This document shows, in pieces, positions 4,819 through 63,929 of a DNA stretch of 64,000 bases (positions within the stretch are counted from its first letter, which is position 1; every line of letters starts with the position of its first letter). The DNA comes from Magnolia sinica. Lineage: Eukaryota > Streptophyta > Magnoliopsida > Magnoliales > Magnoliaceae. The stretch lies in NCBI RefSeq assembly GCF_029962835.1, contig NC_080573.1:88450001-88514000 (forward strand), read 5' to 3'. A model generated the notes under the pieces. That model worked only from the letters and a program-made list of their open reading frames with translations. It was not told where the DNA came from and made no database searches. The position numbers and the translations under genes were made by a program.

Positions 4819-4824
4819 AGTTTT

Positions 4825-18195: not shown

Positions 18196-18199
18196 CCTC

Positions 18200-18673: not shown

Positions 18674-18711
<38 letters not shown>

Positions 18712-18952: not shown

Positions 18953-18956
<4 letters not shown>

Positions 18957-34640: not shown

Positions 34641-34647
34641 TCGTAAA

Positions 34648-35140
34648 AATTGATAGAGCAGACCCGGATGTGCATCGGAGCTATCCAGATGTTAAGCGGG
34701 GGTCCGTGAAAGGTGGGAACCGCTGTTATGACCATGATGAAGCTGTCAATTTCCTATGGACAACATTGGAGTGGCCTGACCATTTGAATAGGCTGTGTTT
34801 ATGTATTTACTCGAAATTAATGGAGCAGACCCGGATGTGCGTCGAATCTATCCAGATGAGCGGGGGTCCCTGGAAGGTGGGAACCGCTGTTATGACCATG
34901 ATGAAGCTGTCCATTTCCTATGGACAGCATTGGAGGGGCCTGACAATTTGGACAGGCCGTGTTTATGTATTTGCTTGAAATTAATGGAGCAGACCCAGAT
35001 GTGCGTCGAAGCTATCCGGATGAGCAGGGGTCCCTGGAAGGTGGGAATCACTGTTATGACCATGATAAAGCTGTCTATTTCCTATGGACAGCATTGGAGG
35101 GGCCTGGCCATTTGGACAGGCCATGTTTATATTTGTATTT
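34648..35140 (+). repeat. Three tandem 164-167 bp repeats
   Basis: Units begin at about 34648, 34815 and 34979 around 'aattaatggagcagaccc', offset 167 then 164 bp, and are roughly 90% alike by eye. The unit encodes a clean peptide (GADPDVRR...GGNRCYDHDEAVHFLW) in one frame. Because 164 is not a multiple of 3 the frame changes from unit to unit, so one long repeat protein is unlikely without splicing or shift. The same unit, inverted, occurs at 59243-59610 in the other CACTA-like element. Confidence 0.9.
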
Positions 35141-35144
35141 GCAA

Positions 35145-38100
35145 GTACCACACCCTAAACCTATAACCTAAACCTATTCTCAATTCCCTAAAGCTATAAC
35201 CTATAACCTATAACATAAACCTAACCCTAAACCTTAACCTAAACATAAACCTAAACCTAAACCTATAACCTATACTTATAACCTTAACCTAAACTATAAC
35301 ATTAACCTATAACCTATACTTATAACCTTAACCTAAATCTATTCTCAAATCCCAAAACTTATACTTATAACCTTAACCTAGACCTTAACCTAAATCTAAA
35401 CCTATACTTATAACCTATAACCTATAACCTAAACTTTAACCTATAAGCCAAACCTTAACCTATAAACTAAACCTATAACCTAAACCTATACTTAACCTTA
35501 ACCTATAACCCAAACCTAAACCTATAACATGTAACCTAAAACCTAAACCCGAACCTAAACCCGATCCCAAACCCGAACTCAATTTCCTAAACCTAAACTT
35601 TAACCTATAACCTATACTTATAACCTTAACCTCAACTTATTCTCAAATCCCAAAACCCATACCTATAACCTAAACCTAGACCTTAACATAAACATAAACC
35701 TATACTTATAACCTATAACCTAAACCTAAATCTATAACATATACCTAAACCTTAACCTATAACCCAAACCTAAACCTATAACCTATCACCTAAAACCTAA
35801 ACCCAAACCTAAACCCGATCCCAAACTCGAACCCGATTTTCTAAACCTAAACCTTAACCAATTCTCAATTCCCAAAAACTATAACCTATAACCTAAACCT
35901 AAACCTAACTTAAACCTATAACCTAAACCTAAACCTAAACATATAACCTTAACCTAAAACAAAACCTAAATCTAAATGTATTCTCAAATCCCTAAACCTA
36001 AACCTACACCTAATCCTAATCTCAACTCCCTAACCTAAACCGAAACCTAAACTTGAAAACCCAAACCTAAATCCGATCCTGAACCCGAACCCGATTTCCT
36101 AAACCTAAACCTTAACCAATTCTCAATTCTCAAAAATTATAACCTATAACATATAACCTATAACCAATAACCTAAACCTAAACTTAACCTAAACATATAA
36201 CCTAAACGTAAACTTAAACCTATAACCTTAACCTAAACCAAAACCTATAACCTAAACCTTAACATATAACCTATAACCTATAACCTAAACTTATAACCTA
36301 TAACCAAACCTTAACCTAAACCTAAACCTATAACCTAAATGTATTCTCAAATCCCCAAACCTAAACCTACACCTAACCTTAATCTCAACTCCCTAACCTA
36401 AACCTTAAACTAAACTTGAAAACCCAAACTTAAACCTAATCCCGAACCCGAACCCGATTTCCTAAACCTAAACCTTAACCTATTCTCAATTCCTAAAAGC
36501 TATAACCTATAACATATAGCCTATAACATAAACCTAAGCCTATAACCTAAACCTAAACCTAAACCTATAACCTTAACCTAAACCAAAACCTATAACCTAA
36601 ACCTTAACCTATAACCTATAACCTATAACTTAAACTTAAAACCTATAACCTAACATTAACCTAAACCTAAACGTAAACCAATAACCTAAACCTAAACCTA
36701 AAACCTAAATGTATTCTCAAATCCCTAAACCTAAACCTACACCTAATCCTAATCTCAACTCCCTAACCTAAACCTAAACCTAATCTTGAAAACCTATAAC
36801 TAAACCCGATCCCGAACCTGAACCTGATTTCCTAAACCTAAGCCTTAACCTATTCTCAATTCCCTAAAGTTATAACCTATAACCTAAACCTAAACCTATA
36901 ACCTAAACCTAAACCTAAACCTATAACCTTAACCTAAACTAAAACCTATAACATATAAGCTATAACCTATAACTTAAACTTAAAACCTATAACCTAACAT
37001 TAACTTAAACATAAACTTAAACCTATAACCTAAACCTAAAACCTAAACCTAAACCTAAAACCTAAATGTATTCTCAAATCCCTAAACCTAAACCTACACT
37101 TAATCCTAATCTCAACTCCCTAACCTAAAGCTAAACCTAAACTTGAAAACCCAAACCTAAACCCGATCCTGAACCCGAACCTAATTTCCTAAACCTAAAC
37201 CTTAACCTATTCTCAATTCCCTAAAGCTATAACCTATAACCTAAACCTATAACCTAAACCTTAACCTATTCTCAATTCCCTAAAGCTATAACCTATAACC
37301 TAAACCTACAACCTAAACCTAAACCTAACCTCAACCTATAACCTAAACCTATAACCTTAACCTAAACCAAAACCTATAGCCTAAACCTCAACATATAACC
37401 TATAACCTATAACCTAAACTTATAACCTATTACCAAAGCTTAACCTAAACCTAAACCTATAACCTAAATGTATTCTCAAATCCCTAAACCTAAACCTACA
37501 CCTAATCCTAATCTCAACTCCCTAACATAAACCTTAATCTATTCTCAATTCTCAAAAGCTATAACCTTAACATATAACCTATAACCTAAACATAAACCTA
37601 TAACGTAAACCTAAACCTTAACCTAAACCTAAACCTATAACCTTAACCTAAACCAAAACCTATAACCTAAACCTTAACATATAACCTATAACCTATAACT
37701 TAAACTTATAACCTATAACCTAACATTAACCTAAACCTAAACCTAAACCTACAACCTAAACCTAAAACCCACATATATTCTCAAATCCCTAAACCTAAAC
37801 CTACACCTAATCCTAATCTCAACTCTCTAACCTAAACCTAAGCCTAAACTTGAAAACCCAAACCTAAACCCCATCCCGAACCCGAACTGGATTTCCTAAA
37901 TCTAAACCTTAACCTATTCTCAATTCCTTAAAGCTATAACCTATAACCTAAATCTAAACCTAACCTAAACCTTTAACCTACACCTAAACCTAAACGTATA
38001 ACCTTAACATAAACCAAAACCTATAACCTAAACCTTAAAATATAACCTATAACCTATAACCTAAACTTATAACCTATAACCAAACCTTAACCTAAACCTA

Positions 38101-39196
38101 AAACCTAAAACCTAAACCTAAACCTATAACCTAAACCTAAAACCTAAAACCTAAACCTAAACCTATAACCTAAACCTAAAATCTAAATGTTTTCTTAAAT
38201 TCCTAAACCTAAACCTACACCTAATCCTAATCTCAACTCCCTAACCTAAACCTAAACCTAAACTTGAAAACCCAAACTTAAACCCAATCCCGAACCCGAA
38301 CTCGAACCCGAACCCGATTTCCTATTTAAACCTAAACCTTAACCTATTCTCAATTCCCAAAAGCTATAACCTATAACCTAAACCTAAACCTAAACCTAAA
38401 CCTATAACCTTAACCTAAACCAAAACCTATAACCTAAACCTTAACCTATAACCTAACATTAACCTAAACCTAAACCTAAACCTATAACCTAAACCTAAAA
38501 CCTAAACCTAAACCTAAACCTAAAACCTAAAACCTAAATGTATTCTCAAATCCCTAAACGTAAACCTACACCAAATCCTAATGTCAACTCCCTAACCTAA
38601 ACCTAAACCTAAACTTGTAAACCCAAACCTAAACCCGATCCCGAACCTGAACCCGATTTCCTAAACCTAAACCTTAACCTATTCTCAATTCCCTAAAGCT
38701 ATAACTTATAACCTAAACCTATAACCTTAACCTAAATCTAAAACCTAAACCTAAACCTAAAACCTAAATGTATTCTCAAATCCCTAAACCTAAACCTACA
38801 ACCTACAACATTAACATAAACTTATAACCTAAACCTATAACCTACAACATTAACCTAAACCTATACTTATAACCTAAACCTATACTTATAACCTAAACCT
38901 ATTCTCAAATCCCAAAATTATAACCTAAACCTAAACCTATAACCTAAACCTAAACCTTAACCTATAACCTATAACCTATAACCTAAACTCAATTCCCTAA
39001 ACCTTAACATATAACCTAACCTAAACCTAAACCTATGACCTACACTTATAACCTAAACCTAAACCTAAACCTAAACCTAAACCTGTAACCTTAGCCTAAA
39101 CGTAAAACCTAAACCTAAACCTAAAATGTAAATGTATTCTCAAATCCCTAAACCTAAACCTATAACCTACAATATTAACATAAACTTATAACCTAA
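35145..39196 (+). repeat. 4-kb degenerate telomere-like array with higher-order period
   Basis: Made almost wholly of CCTAAA, CCTATAA and CCTTAA variants. The + strand is nearly free of G. Canonical plant CCCTAAA heptamers are only occasional and never form a run. A marker phrase 'tgtattctcaaatccc', followed by 'taaacctaaacctacac', recurs at 35977, 36340, 36710, 37067, 37469, 37774 (variant), 38189 (variant), 38539, 38769 and 39133. The spacing is mostly 350-370 bp, so there is a higher-order repeat. It follows directly after the 164-bp repeats and lies well inside the CACTA element, not at a chromosome end. Confidence 0.95.
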
Positions 39197-39775
39197 ATCA
39201 TATGGTGAGACCATTCCTTGGGAAGTAGGTACTTATGGCTATCGATGGGCCTCCTTGCGAAAATCGTCCAGACATTTATTTTGGCCCTACAAACCATATG
39301 ATGAGACCATTCCTTTTGTATCAATTTCATTTCTCTTTGAGTTTTTATTAATTCATTAAGAAAAAAATAGTTATACATGATGCACTTCTTTCACTTTGTT
39401 TTTCTTTCCCCCAATGGTCATTCTGATTTATGAATGTCATGACTATGTGTAGGATGATGGAATATAGGAAGCTGTTGCAGGAAGTGACTTTGTCATTACT
39501 AGAGTTGCATTTTAAGACAACTCTTCAAAGTACTACATAAATGACCGTGGAAGTAATTTTATAGAGGTTACTAAGAAATTGAAAGGAAAATGAGTGGACT
39601 TGGACAACAATCGGTTTTTGATTCTTCAAGTGGGTGATAGCTGAAAAAGGCCTATTTACTTGTGAAAAAAATATCATACCGTCAAAATATATCTTCTCTT
39701 TCAATTTATCATTGAAATTTCAGGGTGAAGTTGAGCAAATTTCTCTAATAAAGCCAAAGATTTGTATTTTCAGCA
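39197..39775. other. Element A, between array and minisatellite
   Basis: No gene. A short direct repeat 'catatggtgagaccattcct' occurs at about 39199 and, with one change, about 39296. The rest is AT-rich. Confidence 0.5.
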
Positions 39776-39990
39776 TTATTGTAATTGTAATTGTAATTGT
39801 AATTGATTAAATGAAAGATTGTAATTGATTGTAATTGTAATTGATTGAATGAAGGATTGTAATTGATTGTAATTGTAATTGATTGAATGAATGATTGTAA
39901 TTGATTGTAATTGAATGAATGAATGATTGTAATTGATTATAATGGAATGAATGAATGATTATGCAGGTGGTAATTGAATGAACAAATAAT
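39776..39990 (+). repeat. ATTGTAATTG minisatellite
   Basis: Repeated 'attgtaattg' words, then a roughly 50-bp composite with 'attgaatgaatgattgtaattg' repeated four to five times with variation. Confidence 0.85.
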
Positions 39991-40009
39991 TATATATATT
40001 TTTTTAATG

Positions 40010-40315
40010 TACGAAATAGCTACGGATATTAACCGTAATCGGTAATACGACAGCTATAGCCATTATTAAATTTGGCATATTGTTACGGACTTTTAGCTAC
40101 AAATAATATCCGTAGCTGTTTATACTTATCGCTACAGATATAATTGCTACGGATTATATCTGTAGTTGTTGTAACCTATAGCTAATCCGTAGCTATACGT
40201 TCCAAACCTATTGTTACGACACTTACGATTACAGTTGTGCTATGGACAAGAACCGTAGCCATAGGTCTAAGGCTACGGATTCTATCTGTAGCTTTTGCCC
40301 CTTTTTCTGGTAGTG
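40010..40315 (+). repeat. CACTA element A 3' subterminal and terminal repeats
   Basis: At least eight variants of 'gctacggat', 'atccgtagct' and 'ttacggac' occur in both orientations, matching the 5' end (18080-18190). The element ends in CTTTTTCTGGTAGTG, the reverse complement of the 5' CACTACC-AAAAA terminus with a small spacer difference. Confidence 0.88.
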
Positions 40316-40994
40316 GTATTTAGAAATAAAATAAAACCAAATGAGACTATTAATAAGTTTAAAGATAGGTTGGTAGCAAAATGCTTTAAATAAAAGGAAC
40401 AAATCAATTATTTTGATACATATTTTTCTGTAACTAGGATTGCAACTATCAGGGTCTTAATAGCAATAGCTTCTATATATAAACGAGTGGTACATCAGAT
40501 GGACGTTAAGATGACTTTTTTAAATAGAGACATCAAAGAATGAATATATATAGAGAGAGCAACCTGAGGGTTATATGATATCGGGTAAAGAAAATAAAGT
40601 ATATAGACTAATTGAGTCACTATATAGTTTAAAACAAGCTCTTAAATATTGGCATAAAAAATTTGATGGTATTTTAAAATCAAATAGTTATCATATAAAT
40701 TATACAAATAGATGTGTATATAGTAAATTTATTTTACAAATCATGGTGTTATTATCTATCTTTATGTTGATGACATGTTTTTTTCAAACTAATATTAAAT
40801 TAGTTAACGTGACTAAGAAATTCTTATCATCTAAATTTGACATGAAAGACTTAGGAGATACTAGTATAATCTTAGGTATTGAAGTAACAAGGAAAGATAG
40901 TGGTATTATATTATCACAATCTTATTATATTGAGGAACTATTAAGAAAGTTTGATCATTTTGATTGTTTACTTGTAAGTACACCTTATAATTAG
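40316..40994 (+). pseudogene. Ty1/copia reverse transcriptase, right fragment
   Basis: Continues the RT frame interrupted at 18070, starting V-F-R-N-K and running through FKDRLVAK, FDTYFSVTRIATIR and HQMDVKMTFLN. A frame change occurs before 40575, where SLYSLKQALKYWHKKFD begins. The catalytic YVDD is encoded at 40762-40773 in a different frame from its surroundings, so an indel lies nearby. The end has FDMKDLGDTSIILGIEV and SQSYYIEELL. Several stops and shifts make it inactive. Confidence 0.9.
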
Positions 40995-41726
40995 AATGTG
41001 ACTCTCATGAAAATACATATAGTAGTATGTCTCAATTGGAATATTCCATGATAATTGGTAGGTTTATGTATTTGACAAACTAAACTAAACCTATCATACC
41101 TTTTACAATATGAAGGTTTAGTAGATATACACATAACTTTAGAAAAGAGCATTGGAATACATTGTCTAGGATTTTGAGATATCTAAAAGTCAGTATGACC
41201 TATGGTTTATATTATAATCATTTTTTATTGTATTAGAAGGATACAATGGTGCTAATTGGATAATTGATTTAGATGAAATAAAACACACTAGCGCATATAT
41301 CTTCACTTTGGGTGGAGGAGCAGTCTCTTGGAAGTGTATCAAGCAGATATGTATCACCCGGTCAACTATGGAATATGAGTTTATTGCCTTAAAAAAGACT
41401 AGATCAGAAGCCAGGTTTCTTAGAAATCTCTTGGTTGATGAACCGTTGTGGTCAAAGCCCGTATCAGTTATGTCTATTCATTGTGATTGTCAAACAACTA
41501 TAGTAAAAGCAAAGAGTAAAATATATAATGGAAAGAACAGACATATTAAACTTAGACACAACATAGTGAAGCACATTTTACATGATGGAGTCATATATAT
41601 TGAGTTTGTGAGGTTAGAAAAGAATCTGATAGATTCTCTTACCAAACGACTATCTGAAAGATTAGTTAATAATACATTGAAAAGAATGGGGCTAAGCCTA
41701 ATATATGAGTTAGCAATGTTGGCAAC
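40995..41726 (+). pseudogene. Ty1/copia RNase H
   Basis: The frame at 41308-41726 has [68 protein letters not shown] and DSLTKRL, the copia RNase H domain, near the C-terminus of the polyprotein. Upstream (41000-41300) is decayed connecting sequence with TAG/TAA codons. It is interrupted at 'ttggcaac' by the solo LTR and continues with 'tcaacccaacc' at 43245. Confidence 0.9.
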
Positions 41727-43244
41727 TGTTGAGTGTCAAATATTGCATATTTTTCCTTATTTATATCTTGGTTTTATGAACATGATAATGCTTAATGGAT
41801 ATATTTTATACATGTTCGCATTGCGAGGTGAATCTGAGAGCTTGGATTGAAAGGAATGTTAAAAGCATGGATTTAATACTCAAGAGTCAGCAAGGCAAAA
41901 GGGGGATCTTAGGAGACTAAGAATGAAGAATTCACATGCTAAAGATCCAAGAAAACTAAGTACGAAGGATGAAGAAAGGACTGAAAAGACTTCAGAATTT
42001 GAGGCAGAAAACAGGCAGGTTTATTCCAACCGAACCTAACTTCGGTCTGACTGAAATCGTACAAAACAGTCTAACAACCAACAATGAAATTCAAAGCTAA
42101 TACGGTTCGACTGAAGGATAATTCAGTCCGACTGAACCCAAGTTCGGTCTGATCAAAGGAAGAATTCAGTACGACCGAAAGTGCACAAAAAGCTCCAGCG
42201 AAGAACGATGAATTTTTTAGTTAATTCGATTCGACTAAGGATTAATTCGGTCTGACCGAAAGTTAAGTTCAGTCCGAGCGAACCCAAGCTTGGTGTGACC
42301 AAAATTGGGTAACTGCTAAAATAAAATCCTTTCATTATTCAAACTCAACTTTGGTCCGACCGAAGTGTAACGCGGCTGCGTAAATTTGAGGCGGTTTCAA
42401 TGTCGGTTTGTGAAAATTCCAAGGCGGTGCGAAAGATAGTGTTTCACAACTATAAATAGGAGTCCATAGGACGTCCCAAACCATCTTCTATGGTTTAAGG
42501 AGTGGAGCCAAATGGTAGAGAAGCATCCCAAGAGTTTTTCTTCCTCTTCCTTAGTTTATTTTCATGTTTTATTTAAGAGTTTTTGGTTTAATCATGTCTA
42601 TGGTTAACTAAACCTCTTAGCTAAGGCTGAGAGGTGAAGCTTATAGCGTATTGGGATGTTTATCTTGCTTTGATTCTTATTTATGTTGAACTTCATTTAA
42701 CTCTAGTTTGATTTTAAAAGGAATATTTTCAGTTTTCTATGATTTATTGTGACTCAAATTACAATAGATGTTGTGATAGCTTTGGATATCTTCTTTTCTT
42801 ACTTTGAGGTTGTGAGATTGGTAAATCCTGTTATTCACCATCGTATCTTGGGCATGGTAGGATGATAAAATCCCTTCCAATCATCACAATTCCCCTCCAT
42901 TGGGAATTAGGTTAATGAAAAGTTCAGATTTGATTTAAATTACTTTATCTTCTAATTAGATAGGATAGGACTCCAATTTCAATTGTGTTCCTTAAATCAA
43001 GTAAGGTAGCATCTTGATAGCTATAAGTGGATCCTTGGTACCCTAGTTCCCACCTTTAAATTCATAAGTTTTAATTGATATTATTTACACTTACTTTCAA
43101 TTATTTTAGAATTCAGATTTAGATCTTCTTCTAATTCTAGTTCTAGTTATTTTCAGAATATGTACAAGTTTAGTCCCTGTGGATTTGACCTCGGTCTCAC
43201 CGAGTTATTACTACATTGCGACCCTACACTTGGGATTATGAACA
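41727..43244 (+). mobile_element. Solo LTR, Athila-like family, inserted in the copia element
   Basis: Starts TGTTGAGTGTCAAATATTGC and ends near ATTATGAACA. It is homologous over both ends to the 2690-4818 LTR, including 'gacctcggtctcaccgag'. Flanks are GCAAC (41722-41726) and TCAAC (43245-43249), a 5-bp duplication with one change. The length is 1518 bp. Its left third holds about eight imperfect TTCGGTCYGACYGAA palindromes (42015-42365). No internal genes are present. Confidence 0.85.
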
Positions 43245-43786
43245 TCAACCCAACCTATACAAGTGGAGATTCCATGAGATAGGTTCAATAGGTAAACAAC
43301 AAGAAATAAGGTAGACGATTGTATTATTATAGATGAGCCCCTTTTGTGGTATAGCAATGCGAGCAGCAACGCAGAAGGATGGATTTTTTGAAACTCTTAA
43401 TAGATCCATAGCCATATATTTGGTGGTGTATATAGTTACTGCATACTGCATACACTTGATGAAATTCACCTATATAGGTGTAGGAGTGGAGGCTGCTTCA
43501 TTTAAAAATCTAGGTGAATTCTTTAAAGTACACATAAAATCCAGGTAATAGTATATGACCAAAAGGCAATGAACCATATAATCACTTGCAAAAGAAGAGT
43601 TGTGTGAGTGGCATGTACTTACAATTTATATAAAAAGGATTCAGGTTCAAAACTATGGTGTCACCTGATTCCTGTAAATCTATCTTTCTTACACTAATGC
43701 TGGTTCAAGTCAATGGTAACACCGACACCATTGCACAACTATTACGCGTTACCCCAAAGTATATTTTTTAAAATATATTGGGGAAT
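43245..43786 (+). other. Copia 3' non-coding region
   Basis: Continues the copia element after the solo LTR with 'tcaacccaacctatacaagtggagattcc', typical sequence between pol and the 3' LTR. It ends with the purine-rich 'tattggggaa' before TGTTG. No gene is present. Confidence 0.65.
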
Positions 43787-44650
43787 GTTGTATTTTGTTT
43801 CAAAATACATATAAAATATGAGGAAATTTTTAAATATTTTAACTTGCCTCCAAAATTGAAATTTATATTGCTTTTGAGTTGTGGGTTTAGCCCCACATCG
43901 GATTTGCCAAAGAAAGTTTCTTTGTATATAAGATAAGCTTTTTGCCTCGAAGCTTGAGCCCCGTCAGGGTGGCATATAAATTTGGTCTTAGGAGGCGGGG
44001 GGCTATGCTAATAGCTCTAATTTATGTCATTGACCACACACACGCATGCGCCAAGCCAAGTCGAACCGTGCTGTGTTGTGCCCCGGCGCACCGTGCCACA
44101 TTTGTATCTATTTGCATGTGCACATGCGCGACGGGCTAGGCCAAGATGCTGGTGTGGGTGCGGGTGTACTCGCGTGGTTATGTATGAGTAATTGCAAAAG
44201 TTTATTTTGTGCGAGCGTACTTATACTTGTGCCTTTTCGTTTTGAAATAGAGAAATATGTTTGGTCGGTTGGACGCACCGGTTAGATTTAAATCCAACTA
44301 ACCAAACTCTTTCAAAAGAGTGCTTAATGCACTACTTTGGAGTCTATACAAGGACTTTCATTCTGTTTTAAAGGACACAAATTTTTTTTCTAATCTCCAT
44401 GATAGCCTCTCTCTCTCTCTGTTCCTTTTCTATTTTACGAGTTTTTTATTGTTGAGTTGGTCATTGAGTTAACTCAGCAATTTCGAGTTAAATTGCAAGT
44501 GGTTCAAGCCTTCATACAGTGAGGGAACCGCTGCGACCGGGTCAAAGTTACTATATCCTGAATATCGATTGCTTTGAAAACTTGTTGCACTTAGGACATT
44601 GTTCATTGGGAGCAAATTCAATTTCAAGCCAAGTGATTCACGTCACGCCT
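43787..44650 (+). repeat. Copia 3' LTR (right end not fixed)
   Basis: Begins TGTTGTATTTTG after a purine tract. It contains the 'cccacatcgg' word common in copia LTRs and a TATA-like 'tatataaga' at about 43925, then a CT-rich and 'gaccgggtcaaagt' zone near 44540. The right end and target duplication could not be determined. Open frames at 43942-44285 are LTR sequence. Confidence 0.6.
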
Positions 44651-45093
44651 CGACTCAACTATATAAATATTCTATCTCATTTTTTTAATTTTCTTTTTTA
44701 TTTTTAATTTTTAATAGTATATTTGGTTTGACCAAACATGATCCAACATTCCATTCATAAGTTGCACTATGGTAGGATAGTCCAAAATAGGTAGATAAAG
44801 TAACCCACTTAAACGGAAACTGTGGATGGGAATGCTGCGGATTAAAACCTTTATGAAACCATCAAAGTTTTCGGATCAAGCTGATATTTGCGTTTCGCCT
44901 TAATCCTCGAGAAATCATCCTGCGAACTGATTGGATGGCATATAAACAACTTGATGAGCCTAAGGTGGTTTCAATGGTGGCGTCCCATTTCCAGTGTATC
45001 CTAATGCGGGGCTCACTTGAATTTTGAATTGCTAACGTCAGCTGGTGCAACGAGTACAGATATTACAATGGCCCCACAGAGCTGCTTTTACAT
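44651..45093. repeat. Dispersed repeat flanking a TIR element
   Basis: Contains 'ggatcaagctgatatttgcg' and 'ggtttcaatggtgg', features of the dispersed family. No gene is seen. Confidence 0.5.
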
Positions 45094-45631
45094 GGGAGCG
45101 GATTAGCTGTTACCCGGGTAATACCTTAGTGGGCGTTAAACCTAACCGTGTGGGCCTACCTTGATGTATTCTTTTTATATCCATGTCGTTTATCTGTTTT
45201 TCAATTTCATTTTACGGCACGATCCCAAATCTTAAAAACATCCAAATCTCATGTGGACCATTACACTTGAAAAAGTGATGAATGACCATTAAAAACTTTA
45301 TGGGCCACAGAAGTTTTTGATCAAGCTAAACTTTGCATTTTTCCTTCGTACAATTCTTTTTAACATTATCAGCCGGCTGGATGGTAAATAAACATTATAA
45401 AAACGTTATGATGGGCCCTTTAGAATTTTTAACGGTGAGGTACTCAATCGCAACTCTTTGCTATGGTGTGGTCCACTGGAGAATTGGATCTGCTTAAGTT
45501 TTGGTCCCCGTTTTAAATTAGGCTGGAAAAACAGAATGAGGGCGTAGATATACAACACATCATTAAGGTGGGACCCACTGTAAGGGTAATACCTCCTAAA
45601 GTGTTACCGGGTAAACACCTAATCTGCTCCC
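45094..45631. mobile_element. Non-autonomous TIR transposon (538 bp), MULE- or hAT-like
   Basis: The ends are inverted repeats of about 40 bp: GGGAGCGGATTAG...GTTACCCGGGTAA at the left, and the complement of GGGAGCAGATTAG...TTACCCGGTAA at the right. Flanks 'cttttacat' and 'tttttgcac' could be a decayed 9-bp duplication (six of nine match, differences all transitions), which would suit a Mutator-like element. The interior is dispersed-family sequence with no coding capacity. Confidence 0.75.
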
Positions 45632-45840
45632 TTTTTGCACGCGCTCTTACGTGTGATGTAATTCCTTCCGGTGGGTTGGCCGTCTCCATCGATCCCGAAA
45701 AACGCAGGATGAACTTTCTGCCCCGCACGCGGATTGTCTGCAAAAGCTTCTGCAGAAAGTTTCTGCGCCCAGGAGCTAGGTAGAGCACTGTCTTTGAGAA
45801 ATCTATTTCATCAATAAAATTAGTAATAATAATTCCATCG
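45632..45840. other. Short intergenic segment
   Basis: GC-richer DNA with no gene. The 71-residue (45568-45783) and 91-residue (45513-45788) frames overlap the TIR element end and are not convincing. Confidence 0.4.
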
Positions 45841-45858
45841 TATTAAGAACATGAGCTT

Positions 45859-45998: not shown

Positions 45999-46016
45999 TA
46001 TTAAGAACATGAGCTT

Positions 46017-48403: not shown

Positions 48404-48744
48404 TTAGATCGTGGTAAAGTAGTACCCAATCACACCAATCCGGATCATCTTTTCAATGGCCTACATTGTAGATGGTCCAAATACGTTGGAAAATACATTT
48501 AGCCATTGATCTACACCGTCTATTAGGGGTCTGCAGACTTGGAGTGACCGCATTTCCAAATAATCACGTGAATCCGTTTATTTGAACCATCCAGTAGCCA
48601 GTTCGGAAATGTACGGTGATAATAAAGTACCACTGATTAGATGGTTAGGATCACTTGCTTCCTGAGATCATACCACTGTGTCCCACAAAAAAAAAAAAAA
48701 AAGGTCCGTACCACATGGACGGTACAGATCGGTAACAAGACTCT

Positions 48745-48754
48745 CCACGTGTCC
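48745..48754. promoter_or_regulatory. ABRE / G-box upstream of the DREB gene
   Basis: CCACGTGTCC contains the G-box core CACGTG in ABRE form, 353 bp before the DREB start codon. An RY-type CATGCATG follows at 48758-48765. Both fit stress- or ABA-responsive control, but their use here is inferred. Confidence 0.45.
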
Positions 48755-49043
48755 AACATGCATGAGTTGCACCATTGCAGGGCACAAACAAAGCAACCCA
48801 ACACTGAAAGTGCCTACATTATTTTGCGAAACAGTAAGTGATGTTTACGTGAATGGAAAACAGTATCCATGTCATCTCTTGAATTCTTATGAGAGAATCC
48901 AAACCAATCAAATCCAACTCAAACACAACCATACATCCACAAAAAAAAGAAAAGCTGGCCCCCAAAAGCACACAATCGCAGTTAACCAACAACTGTCATG
49001 CATTTACAAAAACTCCAACTGTAATAACCCACCCAACGTTCAT

Positions 49044-49051
49044 GTATATAA
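49044..49051 (+). promoter_or_regulatory. TATA box of the DREB gene
   Basis: TATATAAA (in 'catgtatataaaatcc') lies about 56 bp before the ATG at 49107. That would place transcription start near 49075 and give a short leader of about 30 bases. It supports 49107 as the start, not the upstream in-frame ATG at 48678. Confidence 0.65.
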
Positions 49052-49106
49052 AATCCTGCCTTCTAACTTCAAAACTCACCTTCCCGCCACTTTCCTTTCC
49101 ACCAAA

Positions 49107-49703
49107 ATGCATTACTCTCAGTCCACCAACACATTAGATTCCGGAAGCAGCAGCAGCAGCGGTACTGCTGCTGCTGCTCAGGAAGGCCGCCCACTGGCAA
49201 GCCGCCATTCCTTCCGTGGGGTCCGCCGCCGTGGTGGCAGATGGGTATCTGAGATCCGCGAGCCCAAGAAGCCGAACCGCATCTGGCTTGGTTCCTTCCC
49301 GTTGCCGGAGATGGCTGCGGTTGCCTATGATGTTGCTGCCCTGGCGCTTAAGGGTAGTGATGCTGAGCTCAATTTCCCGGGGTCTGCCTCAAGACTGCCA
49401 GTCCCTGCATCCACCTCCCCCCGGGACATCCAGGCAGCTGCCGCTGCAGCCGCTGCAGCAGCTTCTCTTTATATGCTTGGAACCGGCAACAGCAGTGAAA
49501 ATAATGCCATAGTCTCACAACCACCACCCCCAGTTTCGAATTCGAATGCAGATTTCATCGATGAGGACCTTCTCTTCGACATGCCAAATCTTCTTATAAA
49601 CATGGCTGAAGGAATGTTGCTTAGCCCTCCCCGAATGGATGGCAGCGGTGATGACGTCGGTGACGACAATGCCGGTGACCAGAATCTCTGGAGTTATACT
49701 TAA
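49107..49703 (+). CDS. DREB-type AP2/ERF transcription factor
   Basis: A 198-residue intronless protein that would bind DRE/CRT (core CCGAC) promoter elements in the nucleus. Residues 1-30 are Ser/Ala-rich. The AP2 domain covers about 35-92: [18 protein letters not shown], then [20 protein letters not shown] and [12 protein letters not shown]. The Val in WVSEI (47) and the Glu in REP (52) match the DREB-diagnostic V14 and E19. The strand around RRRGGRWV is one residue shorter than in typical members (RRR-x-x-G-K-W-V), an in-frame loss. Next come LPVP, a SPRDIQ motif and an Ala run (110-119). The C-terminus is acidic (residues 150-160, 181-191) and ends LWSY at 194-197. The absence of CBF flanking signatures and the [10 protein letters not shown] motif favour subgroup A-4 (TINY/HARDY-like) over CBF/DREB1. 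It is the only intact host gene seen here. Confidence 0.9.
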
Positions 49704-50340
49704 AAGACTTCATGAATGAACATAATAACTATGGCCAGACTACTATCCAGGTTCCCTCCATTTCTCAAATGGTGGTGACTTATCTACAGTAAACGTGACA
49801 TACATGTACACAAATCCAGCCCGTTCAAATCATAAGTCCCATTGCAGATGCTGCATTTGGAGAAAATGAGACTTATCGGGAGATCCTAACCATCTCTGTA
49901 GTTATCTCGGTGGAAAAGAAATGTCAGATTTCCAAATCCACTGAGGAACTTAAGACTGGTAATATCATCCGAGCAATGTGATTTTCGAGTTATTCTGTGT
50001 CCACAATGGGGCTGATAATTTGAATGGTTTGGATCGTACATGTTTGCCAAATCTACAGGAGATGAGTCACTGCCATCGAAAAAAATGATGGAAAATGGAC
50101 ATGTTGGTCTAGCCCTAAGAAATATAATAAGTTGGAAATATAAATATTACACATAAAAAGAGAGAATCGCGTATGAAGACAATGCTCCAAACATCAGAAG
50201 CTATGCGGTCCTATACGGACTCTTGTACAGGGTTTGAGTTTGTTTGCATGTTTGCTTTGTACAGCGCGCGTTTTCCTATATCCGTCTGAGCTGTGACTGC
50301 ATCCTATGTATCTAATAATAGATAATAAAGATACCCCAAT
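49704..50340 (+). other. DREB gene 3' flank
   Basis: Non-coding. Possible poly(A) signals are AATAATAGATAATAAAG at about 50310-50326. The exact 3' end cannot be told. Confidence 0.4.
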
Positions 50341-52895
50341 TCGTGAAAGTTTGTGATACAAGTAAAAGTATAGTCACCTCACACATGGGATCGAGGCATA
50401 TGCAGCCATCCGGCATGCACCATGGTGTAGATGCCGGCTGATATCGAGATCAGGTGGACCATGATAGTTATTAATGGTTCATTTGTTTTGCACACCATCA
50501 CCCATCTGATGATAATCATATCATCATGATTTTTGAGACATGGAAATTATCCAATGCGGGCCACCTGATGAGTGGCTCCAATCCTTCGCACATGTTTATT
50601 CTTTCCCAATGGGAGGAAAGCGCACCTTGCATTCTTGTTATAGCTATATATTTGTATATGCTTACTCTACCAGTCTCGAGGGGATTTTGACACTACAACG
50701 AAACTCTGGATTTTTAATGAGAACCATGTCATGGATTTTGAGAAATATATAGTGGCATCCCCTTCTTGTATCCATGTCCGTATCTGTATCTGTGTCTGTA
50801 TATGTGTAGGGATAATACCATAGGAGGGACATTGAAGTCGTTGCACCACACACCTATATCTCAATATTAGTCTTGGAATCCTATAAGATGAGGGAAATGA
50901 ACAAACACACATGAAAGCTCATTTGATTAATCAATATAATAATGAAACATATACTTCAGCATCTTTCATTACTTATCCAATAATCTTTGTTGATCATAAG
51001 CAAATACCCCATGAATCTTGCGGTCAGATTTGCTCATCAAGGGTTTTTGCCGACATGAGGTAACCCCCCAAGGAAATTGCACCGATTGATTAACAACATA
51101 CATACAAATATATTGAATTCATCTGAAATAAGAGAAATTGCCTTTCTAAATCCGAAAATCAATTTCATCTGGAAATAAAAGAATTGAGAAATCTAAAGCA
51201 CCATGCAAACCAACAGCAGCTTCGAATTGAACGGTACGACTGAACGAAGAAGATGGAATTGCACCGGTGTATCATGGAAAGATTTATGATGCAATTATCG
51301 CGATTTCAATCTCATCCGAAATTAACAACGTATAAAACTGGAAGCAACCGAGAAAAACCAACAACCCCTTTAAAATCTCTGCAAGATCTACAGCACTAAA
51401 ATGAGTGGAAAAAGGAGAATGCAAGTTACCAGTTTGGTGGAGAATTGCATTTTATAGTTGCAGGTTTACTATGATGATGGTTCACCATAACTTTGTTTTT
51501 TCGAGTTGTGGCCGACACGTCATAGATGTATGCCAATCTGGCTATCCAAATCATGGGCATGCTGTGGTTGGACCATAAAAATGATACTTACAATTATCGA
51601 ATGATGCTATCCATTTAATTTCCATCGTTGAACTTAAGCCTCTGAACATTTCATTTTCAAACATCAATTGACGGCCACCAATTCAATTTGTTAGGGTTGT
51701 TCGCTCACTGAGGCCTTCAGACAATGTGATCTATGATTTGGACGGTCTAGATTGACTTCAATGTATGGCACGTGTACAGTGGGCGAGACACTGCAGCTTA
51801 ATAAATGGTGGATAACGCTCACTGTGAGGCTTTCTATTGTAGTTGGATGTTAGTCAATTGTAATTATGTAAACGTTGATTGTTTAATGGATGGCTATGTT
51901 TTTCTTACCATGTTTAGATATTATATTGTTACTATTACCACAAGAATGGCTTGTGTTAGTTTAGTATATTAAACTAGGTGATTGGTGAAGTGGACCTCTC
52001 CACTGCCTCGGGCCCACCTTAACCTACGTGGCACTTCATTGGAAACGGAGAACAAGGCACGTGTCCTTCTTCATGAACTGGCTGAAGTATTTTGTAACTG
52101 TTATATTAATGGTTTGTATTAAATAGTACTAAACTTAGTGATGGTTGGTGCAAAGTTTTCCACCACGATGGGCCCACTTATCTTGGGCTGACGTGTTATT
52201 CTGATGGACACGGACAGTGCTCCACGTGGCGCTGCAGCATTGGTTGTTGGTGCACATTTTTGCCTGAGGATGTCAACATTAGATTGGATGCTGTGTCATC
52301 AACCTTTCTTTGGTTTTAAGATATGAACTGAACGGAAGATAAGGAACTACTAATTGTACGGACCTCAAACATGCATTTATAGAGCACTCTGGAATCACTG
52401 CTGGCTAATCCTCGGAATAGGAAATTCAGATAATGTCACGCTACTAAAATCCTAAACTGATAATAGGAACTTCAATCCCAAGATCTTGTGTGTTAACTCA
52501 GCAAAATTCGTTTGGGTGACTTTCCAAGTATTCACGGTTAACATTCATATATAATCAAAATAAAAGTAATTTTAAAATATGCGATTTTAAAAGTTAAGCA
52601 TATGTAATTAAACTCAAAAATATGTACCAAATATCTAAAATATACAATTTCAAAAGTAATATTTGTCTAAATAGAAATTATAAAAGCCACAATATATACC
52701 CAAAACGATTAAAGTGTAAAGTTTTTAGTTTTCGTCCATTCCTCCAAGAGATAACGGCAGTGGTGCAAGTTGATTTAAGTCAACATGTCTAAGATCTCCA
52801 TAGTACCTTTATGAATAATATTGTCTAGTTTGTATTTTAAAACATTGTTACATATACGAGTGAGTAGGTAATTCAGTGGTTCCATTAGATCTAAG
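50341..52895. other. Intergenic region with a possible minus-strand promoter
   Basis: No coding gene recognised. At 51449-51457 the minus strand reads CTATAAAAT, followed leftward by an SSR-free, leader-like stretch (51440-50990) that could be an untranscribed remnant or a 5' exon of a non-coding gene. A TATCTG/TATGTG-rich microsatellite occurs at about 50770-50810. Two diverged related segments containing 'gtgatggttgg' / 'ggtgattggtg' and 'gggcccac' lie at about 51965 and 52138. Confidence 0.3.
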
Positions 52896-53524
52896 TTATA
52901 AATGTTATCAACTCAATCAGCGCAAGTAATGATAAAGCAGGTAACCTATCACTTCTTAAATACTCTTCTTGAATGCACAAATGAGATTATGAAATTATGC
53001 ATATGCTTTACAATCCAATACTCTCTCACAAACGACTTCAATACCTATTTCGTACGTGCCAACACTTCTTTATTACGCGACTTTAACACCAAATCACAAC
53101 AACCTAATTTAGTTAAATGCGATTAATACGTATAATTAACCGTTTGATTATTGATCCTAATTCATACAACAGATTGACGAAGCTAAAATATTATCATTAT
53201 ATCACGAGTCTCTATTCGGATCACGAAGCTCAATGTATCAGTAATGGCTCCTCACCTGTGTCCCTTGATCCATTTTAGGGTTCATCACCCAAGGACAACT
53301 ACAAATAATATAAGGGTCGTTACCTAAATATAACTGTAGTAGAGTAACGACATCAATTCCATTTATAATATGGTAGGCTCATACCCTTCACATGTGTTCA
53401 ATGGTCACTGCGGGAAAGCTTGTCGCCCAATTTTGTACGAATATGATGAGCACGTTACATCAGCGTAGGCCAATAGCTCAGACACGGTGTTCCATACTGA
53501 AAAAGCGAGCTATCGATGTCCCGA
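52896..53524 (-). repeat. Decayed LTR fragment of the 3.1-kb solo LTR family
   Basis: 'gttatcaactcaatcagcgcaagtaatgataaagcag' matches 20513 onward of the inverted solo LTR. 'ggtcactgcgggaaagcttgtcgccc' and 'cgtaggccaatagctc-acacggtgttcc' match 21050-21115. Heavily mutated, same orientation as the 19991-23111 copy. It ends at the poly-G run. Confidence 0.7.
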
Positions 53525-53547
53525 GGGGGGGGGGGGGGGGGGGGGGG
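53525..53547 (+). repeat. Poly-G homopolymer (23 G)
   Basis: An uninterrupted run of 23 G at the exact junction between the LTR fragment and the CACTA-like element B. The length is likely to be imprecise in any assembly. Confidence 0.9.
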
Positions 53548-54360
53548 TATTATAGGAAATTGCTCTTTTACCGACGATATATTTTGTCGTTATTTCATAT
53601 TTTTTCAACGGTAATTATTATTACCGACGAAATATGTCGTCGGAAGTATCGTCGCAATAAGACCGTAGCTAAAGGCTTTTCCTGACGAAATATTGCTTCG
53701 TCGGTAATGATAAAACAATTACTGACGAACAAACTCGTTACCAAAACATGTTACTTTTGGTAGGAAAAAATAATATATTTCGTCGGTAAACACAACTTAT
53801 ACAGACGAAATATTTTGTTGATAAAACTATAGATTCAATAATTACCTATGAAATATTTTGTAGATAAAAACTGTGGATTAAACTTTTACCTACGAAATAT
53901 GTCGTAGGTAAAAATGTTGAACTATGAAATATTTCGTAGGTAAAAAATGTGGATTAAACATTTACCTATGAAATATTTTGTAGGTAAAAAATTAATTTTT
54001 TACCTACAAAATATTTCGTAAGTAAAAACTGTGGACTAAAATTTTACCTACGAAATATGTCCACCTACAAAATATTTCGTAAGTAAAAACTGTGGACTAA
54101 AATTTTACCTACGAAATATGTCCTCGGTATAAACTTTTACCTATGAAATATTTCATCGGTATAAACTATTTGTATTAATTTTTAGCTACGAAATGTTTCG
54201 TCGGTATAAGTTTTCAACTTACTATTTTCAATGACATACTTCGTCAGTATAAAGTTTTGTATTAATTTCTACCTACGAAATATTTTTTCGGTATAAGTTT
54301 TCAACTTACTATTACCAACGAAATATGTCATCAGTAATAGTCATTTTTTTTCAAAATTCA
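53548..54360 (-). repeat. Element B subterminal repeats, with a 61-bp tandem duplication
   Basis: More than fifteen copies of 'ttacc(t/g)acgaaat' and its complement 'atttcgt(a/c)ggtaa', often arranged as the palindrome acgaaatatttcgt. A 61-bp segment (54002-54062) is repeated exactly, or nearly so, at 54063-54123. Confidence 0.88.
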
Positions 54361-54557
54361 GGAAAAAATTCCTGATATACACCTGTTACAATACATTTTC
54401 ATCGTATTCACATCCATCTAAACACAAACTACATTAATCCAAACACAAACCACATATATACATACACAAACAACCTTATCTACATCACTTTCATCCACAC
54501 ACAAATACATATAAGTTTAACATTTATATAAAATAAATCATAAAAAAATTAAAAAAA

Positions 54558-56124
54558 TCATGAAGATGAAGGTAGAGGTGGTAGGGCATTAGATGAAGGC
54601 GGACGTGGTGGGGCATCGATGGCTAAGCGTGTAGCGAGAGCCTGAAACCTCTCCTATATCCATCGCTCATGCTTCACCTGTATCTCCTCGATCCTCCTCT
54701 CTCCACCTATGCTCCTCCTCCTCCCTCTACCTCTCCAGCTGCTCTCTGATCTCATCGACGATGACCCGTAGCTATTGAACATTTCTCTCTATGCGATATT
54801 AGCTCGACGTAGGGCGCTCTTGCCAGTGACGGATTGACTGGAAGCAGGTCTAACGGGTGCCATGAGCTTGGCGTCATGGCTAAGCCCATGCACATATCTA
54901 GAACGGGTGTCAAGCACTTCGCTCAGGATATCTGGCTCACTCCGTTGACTACCATCAGGAGTGGGTTGACTTCGAATGGTGTCCACCGCCGCCTGTAATG
55001 AAAACATATGAATTTTCATAACGAATGACCTTATTATAATTAAATGCAATTGAAATTTACAATGTAGGGATTTTTACCCAATTCTCGCTGGCTCTAGGAT
55101 GAACCCAAGATCCCGTCGTCTGTCGACAGTGAGTTCCTTTGTAGAGGTCTACTGGTCCATGATTCTGGCCAGTGATGGAAACTCGCAGTGCAATTGAAAG
55201 GACAATAGAGTTAATATAAATAACTTTTAATATATCAACTTAATAATCACCAGAAATTTCTTATAATGTCATGACGATGTCGTACAAATGACTTTGAACC
55301 AGCTACGTGGTTCACTTCCAACTTTCCCTTATTTGTAGAATTTATTCTACTCCTCTTCTGAACACATTATTCATAATACAGAAAATCTCTCACAGAGTGT
55401 CCGCCAATCGTTTGTAGTCACCTGCAGCAGTACGGATAGTATAACCTCCTTGTGGATCCTGCATCGCTTATACCGCAAGTGTAACTCCCCGCGATACTCC
55501 TTAAATTGCTCCTTGACCATGTCGTCGTCGGCATAGGAAATGTATGAAACACTCAGATCTAAGACAAATTTATCTTGCAATTTCGTAAATAATAAATTAA
55601 GGCAATAAACTTATTAAGAAAATAACTTAACTGTAAATGAACTTTAAAAAAGAAAATTTAATTTACTAAAATTTACCTGAAGGCACAAACGGATGAGCTG
55701 CCGCACATCATCTGTCACGTCTGCCCAACGGGGGGTGGTGGCGGGGATCAAATCGGCATATGACACGGACCTCCGACGTAAACAATCTGAAATTGTCCCC
55801 AATAGGTCTAAGGCAGTCCTATGAGAACTCTAACTGTCACCCTACCCTCACGCTTAAGTCGCTCTAAAACTAACCCACATATGGGTCCACGTCCTCATCG
55901 GTTGGTCGACGATGTTGTCACAAAAGAAATATGTAAGTCTAAACATAAACAGAAGTCACTAAAAGAAATATATGTCTACACTTACATGTAGTGACCAGTG
56001 TATACTCAACCGAGGGCTCGGATGCATGTGATGCGGCATGCGATGTGGATGTTGTCTCTGCTGCATCAAGGGTGGAAGGGGTAGATCCAGTGCACAAATG
56101 ACGTGATCTCCCACCTTGTGCCAT
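54558..56124 (-). pseudogene. TNPA-like transposase gene of element B (Ptta/En/Spm family)
   Basis: Read on the minus strand. Exon 1 starts MAQGGRSRHLC at 56124, donor near 55988. Exon 2 (about 55918-55680) holds LERLKREGRVTV, GDNFRLFTSEVRVICRF and WADVTDDVRQLIRLCLQ in three alternating frames, so it has at least two indels. Exon 3 (55580-55371) has DKFVLDLS, EQFKEYRGELHLRYKR and NDWRTLCERFS. A further exon (about 55010-54560) has a coiled-coil region rich in R/E and a proline-rich end, PPLPSSS, stop at 54558. The order and motifs fit the plant Ptta/En/Spm (Transposase_24) family. It would act as the DNA-binding partner of a transposase. It is not closely alike to the element A gene. Confidence 0.78.
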
Positions 56125-56967
56125 GACTGAATATTTGCGAAGTATGAAATTATAAATTTAAACAATGTCAATACAAGTATATGAATATGAATATAATAAA
56201 CACATTAAAATTTACAGTGCAAGTGAAATATACTAAAACATTGTATAAGTAATGTTGATGGTAGAATGAATTTGTGCTTATGCTTAGAGAGATGATTAAA
56301 ATATGATTAGACCATTACACTATAATGCAAGCAAAATATAATAAAACCGTAAACATTCTAGAAAAATTTAAAAATTTCATTACACATTATCATTATATAT
56401 TAAATACATGTATTTCATTGTAATACGAAACAACTTTGGATTAACTATCCGAAGTATTCCTTGCGTAAGTTAGCGTATACTGCAGAAGTATATGTCAAGG
56501 TGTGTGAGCAATCAACATTGTTATAGCTAACATGCCAATCATAATAGGAGAAATCTAGCCCCTCGGGACTCCATTTAGATGTGTAAGTGACAAAACCGCA
56601 TCTTCCATATGAAGTTTCCTGCGATTATATTCATCCATCATGTCTGAAATTTCTTTGAGATTGTATAATCTTTCATTTGAGTCATTGTCGATATATTCCT
56701 CCATACACTCATCGACTAGACTAGGTATCTCTTTGACCCTACCAGAAGAAGATAGGGTCAGAAAGTCTATCCATAACAGCAGATGAAGTATGTTGCGTGC
56801 TTCCGTTATGATCCGGTTTGAGGTGGACATGATCAGAAATTGACTCAACTGCAAATGTGGATTATAAACAAGTCAATTAAAGGAATAAATTATGACTTGT
56901 AAAATATGTATACATGTAATAATCAAATTATCCAAATTGAAAAATGATATGTAAATCATGTGTACAT
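56125..56967 (-). other. Upstream of the element B gene, with an unidentified 99-residue frame
   Basis: The minus-strand frame 56555-56854 encodes a soluble-looking peptide with RVKEIPSLVDECMEEYID and LKEISDMMDEYNRRKLHMED. I do not recognise a family, and no splice partner is evident. It might be an exon of a captured gene or of the transposon. The rest is AT-rich. Confidence 0.35.
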
Positions 56968-58629
56968 TTAGGTTATAGGTTTAAGTTAAGGTTAAGGTTA
57001 TAGGTTTAGGCTATAGGTTATAGGTTTAGGTTTAAGTTATAGGTATAAGTTTAGGTTATATATGTTATAGGTTTAAGTTATATAGGTTATAGGTTTAGGT
57101 TCATGTTATAGGTTAACTTTAGGTTTAGGTTTAGGTTTAGGTTCATGTTATAGGTTATAGGTTATAGGTTTAGGTATTCGGGTTTGGGTTCGGGTTAGGG
57201 TTATAGGTTTGAGTTTAGGTGTAGGTTTAAGTTAAGTGAATTAAGTTTAAGTTTAGATTAAAGGTTTAGGTTACAGGTATAGGTTTAGGTGTAGGTTTTA
57301 GGTTAAGGTTATAGGTTTAGATTTAGGGATTTGCAAATAGGTTATAGGTTTAGGTCATAGGTTTAGGTTTAGGTTAAGGTTATAGGTTTAACTTTAGGGA
57401 TTTGAGAATAGGTTATAGGTTTAGGTTTAGGTTAAGGTTATAAGTTTAGGTCAAGGTTATAGGTGTAGGTTTAGTTATAGATTTGGGTTATAAGTTTAGG
57501 GTATATAGGTTATAGGTTTAAGTTATATAGGTTTAGGTTATAGGTTTAAGTTTAGGTTATAGGTTTAAGTATTCGGGTTTGGGTTTGGGTTACGGTTATA
57601 GGTTTGGGTTTAGGTGTAGGTTTAAGTTAAGTGAATTAAGTTTAAGTTTAGGTTATAAGTTCAGGTTATAGGTATATGTTTTGGTGTAGGATATAGGTTT
57701 AGGTTTAGGTTATAGGTTTAAGTATTCAGGTTCGGGTTCGGGTTAGGGTTATAGGTTTGGGTTTAGGTGTAGGTTTAAGTTAAGTGAATTAAGTTTAATT
57801 TTAGGTTATAGGTTTATGTTATAGGTTTAGGTTTAGATTATAGGTTATACGTTTATGTTTAGGTTATAGGTTTAGTTTATATAGGTTATATGTTATGGTT
57901 TAGGTTTAGGTTATAGGTTTAGGTGTAGGTTTAGGTTAAGGTTATAGGTTATAGGTTTAGGTTATAGATTTAGGTTAAGGTTATTGGTTATGGTTTAGGT
58001 TATAGGTTTAGGTTTAGGTTTAGGTTTAGGTTTAGGTTATAAGTTATAGGTTTAGGTTTAGGTTTAGGTTAAGGTTATAGGTTATAGGTTTAGGTTTCGG
58101 TTTAGGTTATAGGTTATGGTTTAGGTTTAGGTTATAGGTTTAGGTTTAGGTTTAGGTTATAGGTTATAGGTTTAGGTTTAGGTTATAGGTTATAGGTTTA
58201 GGTTTAGGTTTAGGTTATAGGTTTAGGTTTAGGTTATAGGTTTAGGTTATAGGTTTAGGTTAAGGTTATAGGTTATAGGTTTAGGTTTAGGTTATAGGTT
58301 TAGGTTATAGGTTTAGGTTATAGATTATGGTTTAGGTTTAGGTTATAGGTTTAGGATTAGGTTTAAGTTAAGGTTATAGGTTATAGGTTATAGGTTATAG
58401 GTTTAGGTTAAGGTTATAGGTTATAGGTTTAGGTTTAGGTTATAGGTTTATGTTTAGGTTAAGGTTATAGGTTATAGGTTTAGGTTATAGGTTTGGGTTT
58501 AGGTTTAGGTTTAGGTTATAGGTTTAGGTTTAGGTTATAGGTATAGGTTTAAGTTTAGGTTATAGGTTTAGGGTTAAGTGTAGGGTTAGGTTTAGGGATT
58601 TGAGAATAGGTTTAGGTTTAGGTTTGGGC
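56968..58629 (-). repeat. 1.66-kb telomere-like array, inverse orientation
   Basis: Composed of TTTAGG, TTATAGG and TTAAGG variants, the complement of the 35145-39196 array. It has longer phrases such as 'gggttcgggttagggttataggttt', followed by 'aagttaagtgaattaagttt', at about 57180, 57565 and 57725. The + strand is G- and T-rich, almost free of C. A few true TTTAGGG words occur at the ends, but no canonical tract. Confidence 0.95.
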
Positions 58630-59195
58630 ATCAACATGAATAGTGGGCCCACATATGAATAGACTTTATTTCATTAAAAAAATCATAGCAAGATGAGACT
58701 ATCCTGGAAAGATGAGCCTATCTTGGAAATGTTTGTATTAGATTAGCCATGTTGAGAGTAGTCCACACCATTTAAGGGTCCATTTAAGATTTTTATACAT
58801 ATACTTCATTTATTGTCTCAAGACATAAGATTATCTGTTAAAATGGATGAACGGAGCGGATGAAATACGTAAATCATGATGGACTATTGTTTACTGTATT
58901 ATGGTCCACCTGAGATTTGGATCCCACCATGATGTATATGTTGTATCCAACCGTCCATCCATTTGGAGAGATCATTTTAGGGCATGAGCTGAGGAATGAG
59001 ATAGATCCAAAGCTCAAGTGGACCTCAAAACTAATTGGGGCCATAAAAGTTTTCGATCAAGCTGATATTTGTGTTTTCCCTTCTTCTGGTCTATGTTTGT
59101 GTGAGCTTACCAACAGGTTGGATTTCAAATAACCATCATGGTGGGTCCAGGAAGTAATCAACGGTCGGGGGCACTGTCCCCACCATGATGTTTAG
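58630..59195. repeat. Dispersed repeat inserted in the telomere-like array
   Basis: The array stops at 58629 and a short remainder (59195-59235, 'gttttaggtgtaggtttagg') follows this block, so a dispersed-family copy was inserted. The block has 'gtgggcccac' near 58643, 'gtccacctgagatttggatcc', 'gatcaagctgatatttgtg' and 'ccccaccatgatg'. Confidence 0.75.
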
Positions 59196-59242
59196 TTTTA
59201 CGTTTTAGTTTTAGGTGTAGGTTTAGGTTTAGGGTTATATAA

Positions 59243-59610
59243 GGGTCTGCTCCATCAATTTCGAGCTAATACATAAACACGAGACTGTCAAAATGGCGAG
59301 GCCACTCTAATACTGTCCATAGGAAATGGATAGCTTCATCATGCTCATAACAGCAGTTTCCACCTTTCAGGGACCCCCACTCAACATCTAGATAGCTTCG
59401 ACGCACATCCGAATTTGCTCCATTAATTCTGAGCTAATACATAAACACGGGCTTATCCAAATGGCCAGGCCACTCCAATACTGTCCATAGGAAATGGACA
59501 GCTTTATTATGGTTATAACAGTGACTCCTACCTTCTAAGGACCCTCACTCAACATCCGGATAGCTACGACGCACATCCGGGTCTGCTCCATCAATTTCGA
59601 GCCAATACAA
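59243..59610 (-). repeat. 164-bp tandem repeats, inverted copies in element B
   Basis: Two full units plus a partial third, beginning at 'gggtctgctccatcaatttcgagc' (59243), 'aatttgctccattaattctgagc' (about 59411) and 'gggtctgctccatcaatttcgagc' (about 59580). They are the reverse complement of the 34648-35140 repeats, and as there they directly adjoin the telomere-like array. Confidence 0.9.
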
Positions 59611-61690: not shown

Positions 61691-61704
61691 AATCCCTAAA
61701 TCGT

Positions 61705-61940: not shown

Positions 61941-61967
61941 GGGAGTGGATGGGTGCTAGAGTCGTTT

Positions 61968-63925: not shown

Positions 63926-63929
63926 TTTT

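Follow-up and report, generated by a model that had tools for sequence, protein, structure and literature searches.

Satellite DNA carried by CACTA transposons has been described in Chenopodium, where the Jozin element contains a captured satellite with a 171-bp monomer as a 5.5 kb array near its 3′ end, has also captured gene fragments, and appears dispersed by fluorescence in situ hybridization (PMC8978399). A satellite family of Chenopodium that is derived from CACTA tnp2 and forms free arrays is likewise known (PMC7320549), as are the Pack-TIR transposons, animal terminal inverted repeat (TIR) elements with gene pieces acquired via gap filling or via fork stalling and template switching (PMC8277862), and a common bean CACTA family that is enriched near telomeres (PMC4938662). 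Here we analysed a window of 64,000 nucleotides from Magnolia sinica (C1:88450001-88514000; assembly of 1.84 Gb in 127 contigs), in which two elements, A and B, each carry a block, hereafter the module, that consists of tandem 164-bp units and a telomere-like array of CCTAAA and CCTATAA words.

From comparison of its copies, this module most likely arose once and was passed between CACTA lineages, because its unit blocks are close and its unit-to-array junction is common despite distant transposases. The genome was searched with two units of element A (34648-34980); 40 of 3205 first-look candidates were scored, and their 78 match rows were grouped into 40 places, the window included. Ten kilobases were read at 20 of the 39 places other than the window, the best-scoring ones being picked; this sample is small, chosen by likeness to A, and biased towards the best hits. 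The 20 loci fall into four contexts, namely a C family (17 loci), the A family (one locus, L026), an element related to B (L009), and L020. The initial annotation had named the genome-wide adjoining of unit and array as a point to check, and at all 20 of these best-scoring loci the array lies directly downstream of the unit in the same order and orientation.

As in Jozin, the tandem array is located inside a CACTA element near the 3′ end, which is the case in A, L026, L020, and the C loci with a visible 3′ end. The Magnolia cargo differs from Jozin in being composite, combining two to three units and a CCTAAA/CCTATAA array through one junction, and in being common to elements whose transposases are strongly diverged and whose subterminal repeats differ. 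The tnp2-derived satellite shares the link between CACTA elements and satellite DNA (PMC7320549), whereas the Magnolia unit has no transposase match and was not seen as a free array. Pack-TIR transposons also hold foreign pieces (PMC8277862), in comparison with which the Magnolia cargo is a repeated non-coding block in plant CACTA elements, and the near-telomere enrichment in common bean contrasts with the interstitial places found here. The earlier statement that no named system resembles this one is right in part: satellite arrays captured in CACTA elements are published (PMC8978399), and a literature search, mostly at title level, found no description of a composite telomere-like module common to several CACTA families.

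Elements that carry the module

Element A (Table 1) has CACTA terminal inverted repeats, with CACTACCAAAA at 18071 and CTGGTAGTG ending at 40315. It is inserted in a Copia reverse-transcriptase frame and flanked by GTG and GTA, which differ by one mismatch; taking out one copy restores the Copia frame, and the joined flanks form the single open frame KKKPIGCKWVFRNKIK. With at most one mismatch, GCTACGGAT gave 17 matches compared to 5.8 expected, and such repeats were present on both sides of the element (2 matches at 18129-18164 and 8 at 40019-40292). The module is placed after the transposase genes, and its units join the array directly. Between the array and the 3′ end lies an exon fragment of SMC4 (condensin), which contains stops in A (39453-39629) and is open in L026 (L026:1452-1628, minus strand; best PDB match E 1.1e-12). 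Element A also contains a tandem duplication of a 339-bp unit with 96% matches (23356-24036) and, at 19991-23060, an inverted copy (87%) of an insert of about 3.1 kb at 12494-15582.

Element B is incomplete. Its low-coordinate end is eroded, with TATTATAGGAAATTGC beside a run of 23 G (53525-53547) that stands exactly at this end and is possibly an assembly artefact, and its other end lies beyond the window, where an LTR-like (long terminal repeat) element starts at about L035:34. No intact end or target duplication of B was found, one end being eroded and the other not reached. Subterminal repeats of the TTACCGACGAAAT type occur on both sides, with 28 matches at up to two mismatches compared to 1.2 expected, at 53568-54324, 62240-62379, and 63946. 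Since its second-gene region and its module flank match an element at L034/L009 that bears tnp2 (E 1e-59), Transpos_assoc, and DUF4216 by Pfam, B is, by this homology, CACTA-like; the module flank and first unit were 86% identical over 606 bp to that element. The module of B is found elsewhere in the element and not near the 3′ end.

The units of A and B were 84.5% identical over 355 bp (E 1.4e-106). The initial annotation had described 164-bp repeats joined to a telomere-like array in both elements, and the order and orientation agree, since both modules, once turned so that the unit is in plus orientation, read as unit followed by CCTAAA-type array. The direct join does not hold in B, where only about 50 bp of array-like sequence (~59190-59243) adjoins the units and the junction sequence is unlike that of A. 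The difference in subterminal motifs between A and B (GCTACGGAT versus TTACCGACGAAAT) was correctly noted, and the positions that had been taken as extents of the elements are those of the modules, element A being far larger.

Table 1. Positions in the window of elements A and B and of the parts of their modules.
Feature	Position	Strand	Basis
Element A, CACTA transposon, 22,245 bp, nested repeats inside	18071..40315	+	ends, flanks, Copia frame
Transposase genes of A, whole region	28234..32680	+	Pfam
Transpos_assoc of A	28234-28743	+	Pfam
Transposase_21/tnp2 (PF02992) of A, E 4.6e-26	29481-29711	+	Pfam
DUF4218 of A	30194-30607	+	Pfam
Weak Transposase_24 of A, below Pfam cut-off	32075-32680	+	Pfam
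Three units of module A, spacings 167 and 164 bp	34647..35130	+	
Unit-to-array junction of A, common to L026, L009, L020, and C family	35131..35160	+	
CCTAAA/CCTATAA array of module A	35154..~39190	+ (CCTAAA strand)	
3′ end of A with its GCTACGGAT-type subterminal repeats	40019..40315	+	
Element B, CACTA-like, incomplete	53548..64000	-	subterminal repeats; homology to L009/L034 element
TTACCGACGAAAT-type subterminal repeats of B	53568..54324	-	
Second-gene (TNPA-like) region of B, 78% over 751 bp versus L009 element	55669..56414	-	
Array of module B	56967..~58628	- (TTTAGG strand)	
Other DNA between array and units of B, ~0.55-0.6 kb, boundaries approximate	58630..59190	.	
Two units and stub of third, module B, spacing 168 bp	59243..59609	-	

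A C-type upstream sequence was common to the 17 C loci. Clusters of GGACGGTC/GACCGTCC were found beyond the array in 7 of them, and 4 had the end CAGTTTTGGCGTAGTG followed by differing DNA, the others being without that end within the 10-kb stretch. One full C element of 15,968 bp (C2:40942257-40958224) has CACTACG inverted ends, a CCA/CCA target-site duplication, and GACGGTC subterminal repeats on both sides. When its frames of at least 35 amino acids were compared by tblastn with the transposase regions of L009 and A, none matched, and it reads as a non-autonomous element, which is ordinary for CACTA transposons. The initial annotation had asked whether each locus has CACTA ends and a 3-bp duplication; both were found in that C element, and A has the ends together with a putative duplication that contains the one mismatch noted above. 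The full C element also carries the start of an alpha-tubulin gene (L029:6790-6885, plus strand; best PDB match E 4e-11).

Of the other loci, L026 belongs to the A family and has its own end GGTAGTG, while L020 has other subterminal repeats and the end TTTCTTGTAGTG. In L009 (C9:68186487-68196486) the module directly follows a second-gene exon, and a partial unit with array precedes tnp2. Past a run of N in this locus the array is reversed and ends in an opposite-strand unit, which represents either a second module in inverted position or a gap that was joined wrongly.

Evidence for a probable single origin and transfer

A junction near TATTTGCAGGGACCACACCCTTAACC was present within 5 edits in all 20 loci, with a shorter form in A; B and the copy before tnp2 at L034 are without it. 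The units are spaced 167/164 in A, L009, and L020, whereas 15 of the 17 C loci have a spacing of 167/167. Between families (21 pairs), identity over blocks of about 510 bp was 87.9-92.6%, compared to 89.6% for the two copies of the A family and 96.0-97.2% within a set of four C copies. The transposase pieces of A and L009, on the other hand, had 26-54% amino-acid identity in 8 local matches, whereas their unit blocks were 92-93% identical in DNA. Outside the module, and with arrays masked, these two elements shared one 73-bp DNA match besides CT-rich simple repeats. Blocks this alike in distant elements, about as close as those within the A family, therefore point to a transfer after the transposases had parted. 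A tree of the units was discarded as evidence, being too short and weakly supported.

The sites of the module also differ, since it follows the second gene in A, and in L009/L034 it is found inside the second gene and ahead of tnp2. These differing positions speak for insertion anew over gene conversion among ancestral copies, which would look alike and would itself be an exchange. Taken as a whole, we consider it probable that the module is non-coding cargo of CACTA elements that was assembled once, copied between lineages, and multiplied by transposition of its carriers. The module would have been copied from one CACTA lineage into others, a step that we infer and that would most likely involve gap repair or template switching where an element had been excised or broken, as has been invoked for pieces of host genes in other TIR transposons; it would then have multiplied as its carriers transposed, with the array turning over fast within each element. 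Such copying fits the host-gene pieces and partial module copies seen in or beside these elements, and partial copies with other breakpoints (L018, L025, and L034) fit template switching in particular.

Neither a coding nor an RNA reading of the unit was retained. An open frame of about 55 codons is present in every unit, but among 54 distinct units the changes numbered 210, 139, and 175 at codon positions 1, 2, and 3, with 4 stops, and third positions were not in excess. Two frames over the A units had no Pfam match, and no Rfam match was found in 34500-35400.

The array, its location and competing explanations

The array is built from the words CCTAAA, CCTATAA, and CCTTAA, with CCCTAAA as a minor form. 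CCCTAAA and CCTAAAC occurred 15 and 167 times in the 4037 bp of array A and 5 and 79 times in the 1662 bp of array B, and over the 20 loci their densities were 0.9-6.3 and 31-52 per kb. A telomeric or interstitial telomeric repeat was rejected, as the canonical plant CCCTAAA is not dominant, and the array merely resembles a telomere. Plant interstitial telomeric repeats are telomere-resembling arrays at internal positions; the Magnolia array differs from them in its CCTAAA/CCTATAA monomer and in its link, within transposons, to a 164-bp unit.

Because the bodies of the arrays are rearranged more rapidly than the units, only the junction was taken as evidence of descent and array homology was set aside. 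The 74% alignment between the A and B arrays was rejected as such evidence, since they share 145 18-mers compared to a mean of 153 and a maximum of 197 under an order-7 Markov model. Shared 18-mers exceeded all 20 simulations in both directions for A-L026, A-L020, C(L023)-A, L026-L020, and two C loci mutually, and in one direction for C(L023)-L020, L009-L023, and L026-L011; those of the B array with any other array were not above the simulations. For the array starts, alignment beat all 300 controls only for L026-L020, while A versus L026, L020, and L011 was matched by 8, 13, and 21 of 300 controls, and two C copies (L023 and L011) by 82 of 300.

The likeness of the array to CCCTAAA repeats is what would suggest separate captures of the modules from a subtelomeric satellite of M. 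sinica. This we regard as very improbable, given that the unit-to-array junction is common to the families and that, among the best-scoring places, all 34 with a measurable distance (6 of 40 were not measurable) lie at least 7.15 Mb from a contig end. A subtelomeric satellite was rejected on the same ground, and the predominance of subtelomeric copies that the initial annotation had named as contrary evidence was not observed among these places. The unit was also absent from ten 3-kb contig-end stretches, a weak test, as one was all N and only two had more than 10 TTTAGGG. That blocks A and B are one segmental duplication or an assembly artefact, also raised at the outset, has a negligible probability: they lie within 25 kb of each other and B ends at the run of 23 G, but their flanks are unrelated, with no long flanking match, and similar blocks are present on many contigs, at 39 further scored places. 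Vertical inheritance of the module as an ancestral part of these CACTA elements, with loss in others, draws on short common tracts before the 3′ subterminal repeats of B, C, and L020 (74-83% over 100-130 bp), which relate some families at that end. It is nevertheless improbable, since the blocks of A and L009 differ by 7-8% in DNA compared to a protein difference of 46-74% between their transposases, the unit has no sign of coding constraint, and its positions in the carriers differ; barring gene conversion, non-coding repeats would have to be far better conserved than transposase genes. Of the three options first proposed, movement between CACTA families thus fits best, and double capture from a subtelomere is unsupported in the copies examined.

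Several points weigh against transfer as cargo. Complete ends with a duplication are available for two elements only (A and C), the putative duplication of A with its mismatch, and B and the L009 element are without demonstrated ends. The loci read cover 20 of 39 other scored places, 17 of them from one family, and the 3205 candidates are unsorted. The array bodies of B and L009 share only vocabulary with A and no structure. Moreover, four contexts have almost the same left edge of the module, an outcome not expected if copying used random breakpoints. This near-constant start is the main point for a self-mobile unit as compared to template-switch copying. Such a unit would be small, mobile, and non-autonomous, with its left end fixed (~TGTATTAGCTCGAAATTGATGG) and its array tail variable, and would insert into CACTA elements or close to them. 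The first unit begins at one point, give or take a few bases, in four contexts whose flanks are unrelated (C; the internal copy of L009; B together with L034 near 4512; and the L018 fragment), yet L020 starts about 20 bases further in, the edge in A is unclear, and the second copy in L025 begins inside a unit. There is no fixed right end, a by-eye check showed no clear target duplication, AT-rich flanks may inflate the apparent common start, and no copy outside a CACTA context was identified among the few read. We therefore hold a self-mobile unit to be rather unlikely. The bolder version, in which the unit-array block would be a transferable cassette, a CACTA parasite with a fixed left end that jumps or is copied between transposon lineages, each serving as its vehicle, and in this way disperses a telomere-mimicking satellite through the 1.84-Gb genome, is similarly unlikely in our view.

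Other sequences in the window and meaning of the module

The window contains further features apart from elements A and B. An LTR-retrotransposon-like structure at 2690-17468 has direct repeats at 2690-4818 and 12230-17468 that are 94-95% identical, the second being split by the insert of about 3.1 kb mentioned above, and polyprotein-like frames at 5453-10605. A match to snoR71, a plant snoRNA family, lies within these retroelement-like frames (6044-6150, minus strand). The open frame at 48666-49703 has an AP2 domain that narrowly passes the Pfam cut-off (E 1.4e-8) and is perhaps a host gene.

The proposal that CACTA elements seed subtelomere-like satellites is unproven, and no free tandem expansion of the module was seen in the loci read. 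The probable transfer of the module as cargo suggests that transposon families with far-drifted transposases still exchange a large non-coding block, so that the histories of cargo and transposase are separate. It would be a clear example of the dispersal of satellite-like DNA by DNA transposons, measured against the divergence of their transposases, and it is a warning that a telomere-like signal in the interior of a plant chromosome can be cargo of a transposon.

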